In this document: positions 8,602 through 52,829 of the stretch, in pieces
How positions within the stretch are numbered: the stretch's first letter is position 1
How the letters are laid out: each line of letters starts with the position of its first letter
NCBI RefSeq assembly: GCF_026015965.1
Contig: NZ_CP110383.1
Coordinates: forward strand, 1,243,501 to 1,307,500
DNA from: Selenomonas sputigena
GTDB lineage: Bacteria > Bacillota > Negativicutes > Selenomonadales > Selenomonadaceae
Direction: 5' to 3'
DNA: 64,000 bases
The notes under the pieces: model-generated
What the model saw: only the letters and a program-made list of their open reading frames with translations
Told to the model about the DNA's origin: nothing
Database searches by the model: none
Position numbers and translations under genes: made by a program

Positions 8602-8642
8602 TTTTATAGCCTCTTTTCAATCTTCAAGTGGGAGAGGTATTT

Positions 8643-8675
8643 GAGAAAGCACTGATAAATTCAGCGCTTCCTTGA
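8643..8675. repeat. Dispersed palindromic element, copy A
   Basis: The 13-bp core CTGATAAATTCAG (8652-8664) is a near-perfect palindrome, flanked by AAGC and GCTT that extend the pairing. Related copies lie at 21971, 23724 and 52798, all in intergenic DNA. This copy is 42 bp upstream of the pyridoxamine kinase start. Confidence 0.6.
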
Positions 8676-8721
8676 TGACTGCTTCCACATCATCCCCCTC
8701 AAGGTCTTTTCATTCTACCAC

Positions 8722-8937
8722 GAAACCCCAAGAAGTCAAACCCAAAGGGTGCAGGCTGATTGGCTAGGTTTCTGGTAAGGGCGGCGCACTATGTCCACAA
8801 AGTGGACGTTTGTGCGTGTAGTTCGCCGTGAAACCCCAAGAAGTCAAACCCAAAGGGTGCAGGCTGATTGGCTAGGTTTCTGGTAAGGGCGGCGCACTAT
8901 GTCCACAAAGTGGACGTTTGTGCGTGTAGTTCGCCGT
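8722..8937. repeat. Perfect 108-bp tandem duplication with nested inverted repeats
   Basis: Units 8722-8829 and 8830-8937 are identical over 108 bp. Each contains three foldable parts: GAAACC with GGTTTC 47 bp apart, ACCC-AAA-GGGT, and a long hairpin built from GGCGGCGCAC-TAT-GTCCAC-AAA-GTGGAC-GTTT-GTGCG ending in CGCC. After the second unit a third, diverged start (GAA...GAAGTCAAGC) can be recognised. The repeats lie in the 491-bp space between the kinase gene and the toxin-antitoxin operon. No matching copy was seen elsewhere in the window. There are no unique spacers, so it is not a CRISPR array. Confidence 0.85.
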
Positions 8938-9046
8938 GAACGTCCATGAAGTCAAGCAGAAGGCGCAAATCGTCGCCTTATTTCAGGCAGGGAGCATGGA
9001 AGAATCGCTCTTCTCGCTCGGCTTGACGCAAGGAAATGGAGAATGA
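8936..9046 (+). pseudogene. Short open tail after the tandem repeats, possible gene remnant
   Basis: From a GTG at the end of the second 108-bp unit, 36 codons run to a TGA. The predicted peptide (VNVHEVKQKAQIVALFQAGS onward) looks protein-like and uses codons similar to the backbone. The same frame in unit 1 reads AVKPQEVKPKGCRLIG and then stops. There is no ribosome site, and the end overlaps the antitoxin promoter. I read it as the possible 3' remnant of a lost gene whose tail was duplicated; it could also be chance. Confidence 0.25.
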
Positions 9047-21970: not shown

Positions 21971-21998
21971 TGGAAGCACGGATAAACTCAGAACTCTC
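21971..21998. repeat. Dispersed palindromic element, copy B
   Basis: The sequence GGAAGCAC followed by GGATAAACTCAG at 21972-21991 matches copy A with two changes in the core. It lies upstream of the Rrf2 gene. Confidence 0.5.
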
Positions 21999-23579: not shown

Positions 23580-23723
23580 GTTTTCTGCCTCCTGATTTCA
23601 AAATTATTGCCTACATCAAGTATTTTTATTCTTCATCAAGGCTTAAACTCCTGCTTCTTTGCCTAAACTACCCAAATTTTAAGGAAACGATGATAAGACG
23701 AAATCGCCCAGATTCGTGAAGAT

Positions 23724-23755
23724 GGACGGCTGAATTTATCAGCGGTTCCTGAAGG
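23724..23755. repeat. Dispersed palindromic element, copy C
   Basis: CTGAATTTATCAG at 23730-23742 is the exact reverse complement of the 13-bp core of copy A, and TTCCT follows as in copies A and D. It lies between the secreted-protein gene and the CDF gene end. Confidence 0.6.
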
Positions 23756-49396: not shown

Positions 49397-50680
49397 TTAC
49401 AAATACCTGAGCCAGATGTAGACGCTCGAAATCGCAATCGAGAGCGTCATCATCGGCAGCGCGATCTTCATGAAGCTGATGAAGGAGATCGGCTTGCCGC
49501 GTTGCGCCGCCATCGAAGCGACGACGACGTTCGCCGAGGCGCCGATCAAGGTGCCGTTGCCGCCGAGGCAGGCGCCCAGGGCGAGAGACCACCATACGGG
49601 ATCGAGATTCGTCATGCCCATCTGCCCCATATCCTGAATCAGCGGAATGAGCGTCGCGACGAACGGGATGTTGTCGATGAACGCCGAAGCGTAGGCACTC
49701 ATCCAAAGAATGAGCATCGAGGTCGCCGTGAGATCGCCGTTCGTGATCTTGATCGCCTCTTCTGCGAGCATCTTGATGACGCCCGTCTCGACGAGTGCGC
49801 CGACGAGGATGAAGAGACCGGCGAAGAAGAAGATGGCGAGCCATTCGACCTTCGACAAGACCTTCGCGATCATCGCCTCCTTCTGTGGGAAACTGATGAG
49901 GAGCAGGAGGCCTGCGCCTGTCATGGCGGCGGTCGCCGTGTCGAGGTGGAGCTGTCCGTGCAACACGAAGAGGCTGATCGTAATAGCGAGCGCGAACAGG
50001 CACTTCTTCAAGAGACGCGGCTCGACGATCTGACTCTTCTCATCGAGCTGCATGACCTTCTCGCGCAGCTCGTCCGTCGTGTGGAGCTTCTTTCCGTAAA
50101 TCACGATCAAAAGAGCGATCGTCACGATGAAGATCAGGATACAGATCGCCGTGAGGTTCGTGATGAAATCCATGAACTGCAGGCCGACGGCACTGCCGAT
50201 CATGATGTTCGGCGGATCGCCGATGAGCGTCGCCGTGCCGCCGATGTTCGACGCAAGGATCTGCGCGATGAGGAACGGCTTGACATCGACGTTGAGCTGC
50301 TTCGTGATGCTGAACGTGATCGGCACCGTCAGAAGCACCGTCGTCACGTTGTCAAGAAGCGCCGAGCAGACGGCCGTGAGGAGCGAGAGAGCGACGAGCA
50401 GGGAGATCGGCTTCGCCTTGACCTTCTTCGCCGCCCAGATTGCGAGGTAGTTGAAGAGTCCGGTCTCACTCGTGATGTTCACGATGACCATCATGCCCAT
50501 GAGGAGTCCGAGGGTGTTAAAGTCAATGTGATGAATCGCGGTCTCCTGGTTGATGATTCCGAGGAGGATCATCAGCATGGCGCCACAAATACCAATGATG
50601 GTGCGGTGAATCTTCTCTGAAATGATCAGCGCGTAAGCCGCGACGAAGATCACGATAGCAACAATTGTGCTTGTTTCCAC
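49397..50680 (-). CDS. ArsB/NhaD-superfamily ion transporter
   Basis: The 427-residue protein has about 11 membrane helices and the superfamily motifs SALLDNVTTVLLTVP and ASNIGGTATLIGDPPNIMIGS, with a second half repeat (FIDNIPFVATLIP, GGNGTLIGASANVV). It is an ion transporter of the arsenite/Na+/citrate group; without arsR/arsC neighbours an arsenite role is not implied and Na+/H+ exchange is equally possible. The start is GTG. Confidence 0.85.
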   Translation of the reverse strand: METSTIVAIVIFVAAYALIISEKIHRTIIGICGAMLMILLGIINQETAIHHIDFNTLGLLMGMMVIVNITSETGLFNYLAIWAAKKVKAKPISLLVALSLLTAVCSALLDNVTTVLLTVPITFSITKQLNVDVKPFLIAQILASNIGGTATLIGDPPNIMIGSAVGLQFMDFITNLTAICILIFIVTIALLIVIYGKKLHTTDELREKVMQLDEKSQIVEPRLLKKCLFALAITISLFVLHGQLHLDTATAAMTGAGLLLLISFPQKEAMIAKVLSKVEWLAIFFFAGLFILVGALVETGVIKMLAEEAIKITNGDLTATSMLILWMSAYASAFIDNIPFVATLIPLIQDMGQMGMTNLDPVWWSLALGACLGGNGTLIGASANVVVASMAAQRGKPISFISFMKIALPMMTLSIAISSVYIWLRYL

Positions 50681-52797: not shown

Positions 52798-52829
52798 GGA
52801 AGCACGGATACATTCAGCATTTCCTCAAG
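52798..52829. repeat. Dispersed palindromic element, copy D
   Basis: GGAAGCAC and GGATACATTCAG at 52798-52817 match copy B closely and copy A with two core changes, followed by TTTCCTCAAG. It lies directly before the terminator at 52830 and upstream of glnS. Confidence 0.5.

Follow-up and report, generated by a model that had tools for sequence, protein, structure and literature searches.

Described type II MITEs include Chunjie of Geobacter uraniireducens and QMITE1 and QMITE2 of Coxiella burnetii (PMC10969869). As that review sets out, these elements are gene-less, possess TIRs and target duplications, resemble an IS only in their TIRs and form a ladder from full length down to short remnants, and the Selenomonas element that we describe below is like them in each of these respects. 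Truncated QMITE2 copies resemble REPs and have lost both TIRs and DRs, whereas the short forms found in Selenomonas keep both ends (PMC10969869). The Selenomonas element also differs from them in its sequence and hosts, in a 160-bp form that makes up one hairpin, and in its discrete sizes of 67 and 27 bp.

The second system of comparison is an IS5-family IS (NF033581; DDE_Tnp_1 and DUF772), whose outermost 16-18 bp, and whose AT-rich target of 4 bp, are shared with the Selenomonas MITE. This IS is about 1.25 kb long and has a transposase gene, whereas the MITE is gene-less and has no internal similarity to the IS. The target of the IS5 group is YTAR.

We are confident that the palindrome studied here forms the end of a type II MITE, with ends probably recognised by an IS5-family transposase, and that the element probably shrinks to 67 and 27 bp after insertion. 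The family is new and of a known kind (type II MITE); among the open-access papers listed, none, judged by title and the start of the abstract, dealt with such an element in Selenomonas. The analysis recognises a repeat scattered through oral Selenomonas and Centipeda genomes and through some related MAGs, and names its probable helper. Insertion differences could distinguish strains, and the family offers a worked example of how a hairpin transposon can give rise to REP-like palindromes by shrinking in steps.

Four copies of a palindrome in the window

The window is the whole stretch of DNA that was analysed, 64,000 nucleotides of Selenomonas sputigena, corresponding to positions 1,243,501-1,307,500 of genome G000 (one contig of 2,613,980 bases). 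An initial annotation made from the letters had listed four copies of a short palindromic element, at window positions 8643, 21971, 23724 and 52798, and all four were found there. They are given below with their flanks, together with the comparison to G001, another genome of the same genus.

8641 to 8644, no strand: TTGA, left target duplication of copy A
8645 to 8671, plus strand: copy A, 27-bp form, sequence GAAAGCACTGATAAATTCAGCGCTTCC, left end with one mismatch, right end exact
8672 to 8675, no strand: TTGA, right target duplication of copy A
21972 to 21998, plus strand: copy B, 27-bp form, right end degenerate, flanks TCGT/TTGT, same length in G001
23683 to 23749, minus strand: copy C, 67-bp form, flanks TTCA/TTAA, same length in G001 with 55 of 67 positions identical
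52798 to 52824, plus strand: copy D, 27-bp form, flanks TTGA/TCAA, same length in G001 with 25 of 27 positions identical

As first described, copies A and C have an exact 13-mer in common, on opposite strands, and copies B and D each differ at two positions and both contain GGAAGCAC. Copy C has its left end on the minus strand, and its true extent of 67 bp exceeds the stretch originally marked. All four copies are intergenic under a codon-usage gene model. Three of them had been placed upstream of gene starts; the association with starts was seen again, but for every copy, since each of the four precedes at least one start. Within the window alone, the excess of the core motif is modest, with five matches at up to two mismatches against 0.87 expected, a count reached by one of 100 shuffles. 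The fifth match, at 50617, has flanks that mark it as a non-member.

A separate repeat family is present beside copy A, where two mutually identical copies of about 110 bp lie head to tail at window positions 8720-8938. Many more copies of this repeat are found in G001, some of them head to tail, and one copy sits within a 265-bp MITE copy.

The palindrome is one end of a two-ended element

Over the 2.61 Mb of G000, CTGATAAATTCAG had 33 exact matches against none for the reversed control, and GGAAGCACTGATAAATTCAG had 81 matches at up to three mismatches against none for its control. In this genome scan, which the initial annotation had proposed as a check, the excess over the control is large (33 against 0 and 81 against 0), an outcome in favour of a real element. 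Comparison of the flanks showed that CTGATAAATTCAG is the left end of a longer, two-ended element. The sequence of this left end is GGAAtCACTGATAAATTCAG, and that of the right end, in the inward direction, is GGAAGCGCTGATAAAATGAG, for which 51 matches were counted when three mismatches were allowed (some of which are left ends) against none for the control. The element consists of inverted repeats terminated GGAA...TTCC.

Within the stretches retrieved from G000, pairing of the ends at up to four mismatches gave 42 pairs, reduced to 41 by the removal of one double count, together with 35 unpaired ends. The family thus totals about 76 loci in G000, 41 two-ended and 35 recognised by one matching end, a few of which may be chance matches or heavily decayed copies. 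An extrapolation from the window to perhaps a hundred copies had been about right. The sizes of the 41 two-ended copies were 27 bp (one copy), 40, 43 and 44 bp (one each), 66 bp (three), 67 bp (12), 77 bp (one), 160-161 bp (14), 265 bp (one) and 279 bp (six). Among the 35 single-ended loci, a right end lies exactly at 27 bp in 16 and at 66-67 bp in four, including copy C.

When folded as RNA, the 160-bp form gave one hairpin over its full length (-59.0 kcal/mol, z -5.9), and the 67-bp form folded more weakly (-12.6, z -2.4). The 27-bp form has two 11-bp arms and a 5-base loop, and its consensus gave a strong hairpin (-14.6, z -8.0). The 279-bp form is the 160-bp form plus 119 bp, present as an extra hairpin-forming middle, and the 265-bp form includes one copy of another repeat, about 107 bp long. 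The common form of the MITE is a gene-less element of about 160 bp, predicted to fold as one end-to-end hairpin. A hairpin module of about 41 bp, 83% identical to the central module of the 160-bp element, also stands without recognisable MITE ends at about 858350-858390 of G000 (L103 1351-1391).

Target duplications and empty sites

Identical 4-bp flanks were found at 14 of the 41 two-ended copies of G000 (shuffle mean 2.0, largest 8, in 2000 shuffles), and the number of matching 4-bp flank positions was 119 against 74.9 in shuffles (largest 97). Only 4 bp stood out among the duplication lengths compared in G000, which were 2, 3, 4, 5, 6, 8 and 9 bp. The same was sought in named relatives, where 106 elements were retained after merging identical-flank copies and dropping 19 matches that lay at an edge or had no resolvable right end. 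Among the matches listed, 72 of these 106 elements had identical 4-bp flanks (shuffle mean 9.2, largest 18) and none had identical 5-bp flanks, the commonest duplications being TTAA, TTAG, CTAA, TTTA and CTAG.

The flanks of 17 G000 sites were joined and searched in G001. A base-precise empty site, in which the 4 bp stand only once, was present at eight of them (2054543, 2275753, 1958584, 2443401, 554413, 937809, 1441600 and 824607). The G000 element is 67 bp long at one of these eight sites and 160-279 bp at the rest. Matches spanning the eight junctions are 86-98% identical, indicating that the long forms moved after the split of G000 and G001. Two other sites (2129141 and 1769772) also look empty in G001, with poorer junctions. 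Sites 2519226 and 971537 are occupied by a copy of the same length and site 2511701 by one of different length; at 2072149, a G001 copy lies beside the same left flank, the right flank not being placed. No call was made for copy A, 2194892 and 1585160.

Several features of type II MITEs are therefore found together in this family: TIRs, a TSD of fixed length, a small size without a transposase gene (27-279 bp), insertion polymorphism with clean empty sites, and a resemblance to an IS that is limited to the TIRs. The MITE inserts at AT-rich, YTAR-like intergenic sites and duplicates 4 bp there. Of the interpretations offered initially, which are partly supported, that of a small MITE-like element was about right.

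An IS5-family element is the probable helper

A search with DDE_Tnp_1 gave no match in G000. A family-wide transposase search was then made on 151 genomes, 92 of which had a match, and 30 loci were taken. In seven of these 30 loci (L136, L137, L139, L142, L147, L149 and L152), the transposase lies between two facing MITE-type ends (up to two mismatches). The IS so delimited is 1.22-1.26 kb long, with ends such as GGAATCACTGATAAATAGTGG and GGAAACACTGATAAATTCTTATG. The protein of L137 (332 aa) is an IS5-family transposase (NF033581, 309 bits for a cut-off of 140) with the Pfam domains DDE_Tnp_1 and DUF772. By BLAST, similarity between MITE and IS is restricted to the terminal 16-18 bp in seven of nine IS copies; for L139 and L152, whose terminal similarity is weaker, no terminal stretch was aligned to the MITE, although the ends look alike. 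Elsewhere in the IS copies, the only MITE matches are of 9-12 bp (E 0.08 or worse), save for a MITE inside L222. The 4-bp flanks are identical in three of the nine IS copies, and in six they show one or two mismatched positions.

The L137 protein was searched in 12 chosen genomes and matched in four, namely G091, G146 and, as broken copies, G018 and G020, the last two of which both carry the MITE. No match to the L137 protein was found in G000, G001, G014, G022, G027, G028, G009 and G149. The IS transposase and the MITE occur together in genomes assigned to S. massiliensis, Centipeda periodontii and S. artemidis, and IS ends matching those of the MITE are thus present in MITE-bearing relatives; at locus L141 of C. 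periodontii, only one IS end was found. In two cases the MITE lies within the IS transposase gene itself, in S. massiliensis (L233 4746-4905, duplication TTTA) and in C. periodontii (L222 5653-5812, duplication TTAA), with the IS sequence resuming on either side of the inserted MITE. A third copy, with a TTCA duplication, lies in the broken IS of G020 (L171 2261-2419), with the transposase fragment on one side of it and the second IS end on the other. Copies in the helper's own gene or in a broken copy suggest that the parasite can disable its helper.

Matching ends and co-occurrence point to this IS5-family element of about 1.25 kb as probably the helper of the MITE. The GGAAnCrCTGATAAA-type ends would then be bound by its DDE transposase, supplied in trans. 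It counts against this helper that none was found in G000 or G001, though long copies moved after the split of these genomes. The non-identical flanks of six of the nine IS copies and the weaker terminal similarity of L139 and L152 are further points against it. A DDE transposase of G001 (L164, Pfam DDE_Tnp_1_6) was rejected as the helper, its ORF not being bracketed by facing ends. Among the matches listed for the probable helper protein against plasmids, the hits were transposases of the IS5 family, none of them above about 51% identity.

Short forms and their probable origin by internal deletion

Among the matches listed, 101 of the 106 elements of named relatives measure 158-163 bp, which suggests that the long form is probably ancestral. 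Twenty further sites of G000 were compared with G001: copies B, C and D, fifteen 27-mers, a 43-mer and a 40-mer. The length is the same in G001 at 15 of them (B, C, D, eleven 27-mers and the 40-mer), one site has 43 bp in G000 and 67 bp in G001, and 1475071 is partly deleted in G001; there was no call at 1697358, 2101623 and 2141200, the last of which had no match. At 2511701, the copy is 67 bp long in G000 and 27 bp in G001, so that, with the 43/67 pair, two orthologous sites differ in length in place. As copies, the short forms are older than the long forms.

The proposed deletion points leading from 160 to 67 to 27 bp were read by eye. The 67-bp form corresponds by eye to the 160-bp form cut between two copies of ATCTG, and the 27-bp form to the left 20 and the right 7 bases joined at TCAG, a motif present on both sides of the element interior. 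The 27-mers of G000 have loops of the left type (TAAAT, or a variant with one or two changes), as a TCAG-TCAG cut demands, and a 27-mer of the same construction is found in G028 (L055), built from the end variant of its own genus. Other genomes contain isolated short copies, 35, 37, 53 and 59 bp long, whose 4-bp flanks match perfectly.

After insertion, a deletion between the two ATCTG copies, followed by one between the two TCAG copies, would probably strip the hairpin of its interior and leave 67-bp and finally 27-bp palindromes. On established knowledge, the mechanism would presumably be slippage between direct repeats on either side of a palindrome. The copies of the window are probably old elements shortened through internal deletion. 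One allele counts against a simple deletion model: in the G001 copy at 2511701 (L113), the loop of the 27-mer runs the opposite way to that expected from a simple TCAG-TCAG cut in the 67-bp allele, as though the hairpin loop had flipped. The flank identity of the 27-mers as a group, which does not rise above chance, is a second point that speaks against the model or is left unexplained by it.

Alternatively, the 27-bp palindromes could be minimal transposons, made of the two arms and the loop, that spread as such. Copy A (TTGA/TTGA) and the copy at 1697358 (TTAA/TTAA) indeed have perfect 4-bp flanks, at least 17 copies are exactly 27 bp long with similar left-type loops, and perfectly flanked short forms of 35, 37, 53 and 59 bp exist in other genomes. 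We nevertheless consider this distinctly unlikely. None of the 27-mers gave a clean pair of filled and empty sites: of 18, 13 have the same length in G001, one is degenerate there and four are without a call. Taken together, the 27-bp forms lack a significant 4-bp duplication, with flank identity no higher than chance (2 of 18; shuffle mean 0.88, largest 4). Moreover, one site is 67/27 in place, and the left-type loop would equally be left by a TCAG-TCAG deletion.

Shrinkage after insertion, the reading that we prefer, could also be put in a more speculative form, in which the MITE descends a fixed ladder of about 160, 67 and 27 bp by means of the hairpin's own direct repeats, and the resulting 27-mers could still be mobile because they keep both transposase-recognition ends. 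We regard this form as rather unlikely. If true, few transposable units would be smaller than the 27-bp palindromes, and MITEs could turn directly into REP-like palindromes.

Genomic location, and a regulatory or REP origin as rival readings

The location of the copies was assessed with a home-made codon-usage gene caller trained on the window, single-ended loci being treated as 27 bp and one of the 76 loci being dropped for too little flank. Of the 75 loci placed, 74 lie between predicted genes, in surroundings where 83% of the bases are coding, which bears out the intergenic position first noticed in the window; the exception (926714) is a weak single-ended match. Gene order around the 74 intergenic copies was tandem in 53, divergent in 15 and convergent in five, with one side undefined in the remaining case.

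A palindrome that is intergenic, often near gene starts and, in its 27-bp consensus, a strong hairpin could also be the binding site of a common regulator, as had been proposed, or an RNA hairpin, retained because it affects the genes next to it. We hold this to be very improbable, because copies come and go between close relatives and leave a precise footprint of insertion, many of them being absent from G001. In addition, the 13 shared 27-mers are identical at 331 of 351 positions inside against 2488 of 2556 in their flanks, so that the short copies are not more conserved than their surroundings and give no sign of constraint. The mixture of gene orders likewise speaks against it, as does the lack of any Rfam match at the copies; in the window, Rfam 15 at gathering score returned two tRNAs only. 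Single copies could still have been co-opted.

REP or REPIN elements that depend on a REP-associated tyrosine transposase (RAYT) for their movement are likewise numerous short intergenic palindromes. REP, one of the readings offered initially, can in this RAYT sense be practically dismissed here, since Y1_Tnp (PF01797) has no match in G000 at E 0.001 (5 of 14 control genomes match) and the long Selenomonas copies, unlike REPs, are transposons with two DDE-type TIRs and a 4-bp duplication.

Distribution of the family

Left ends (up to one mismatch) were detected in eight of 60 genomes, all eight belonging to one family (G000, G001, G014, G018, G020, G022, G027 and G028), and in none of the 23 genomes of other families among the 60 scanned. 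A wider scan of contigs gave at least 120 stretches, titled Selenomonas, Centipeda or uncultured Veillonellaceae MAGs. The 160-bp element had no match in phage and plasmid records. Three MITE left ends are present on a predicted viral contig, IMGVR_UViG_649989997 (114,551 bases; L334-L336), which may contain host DNA.
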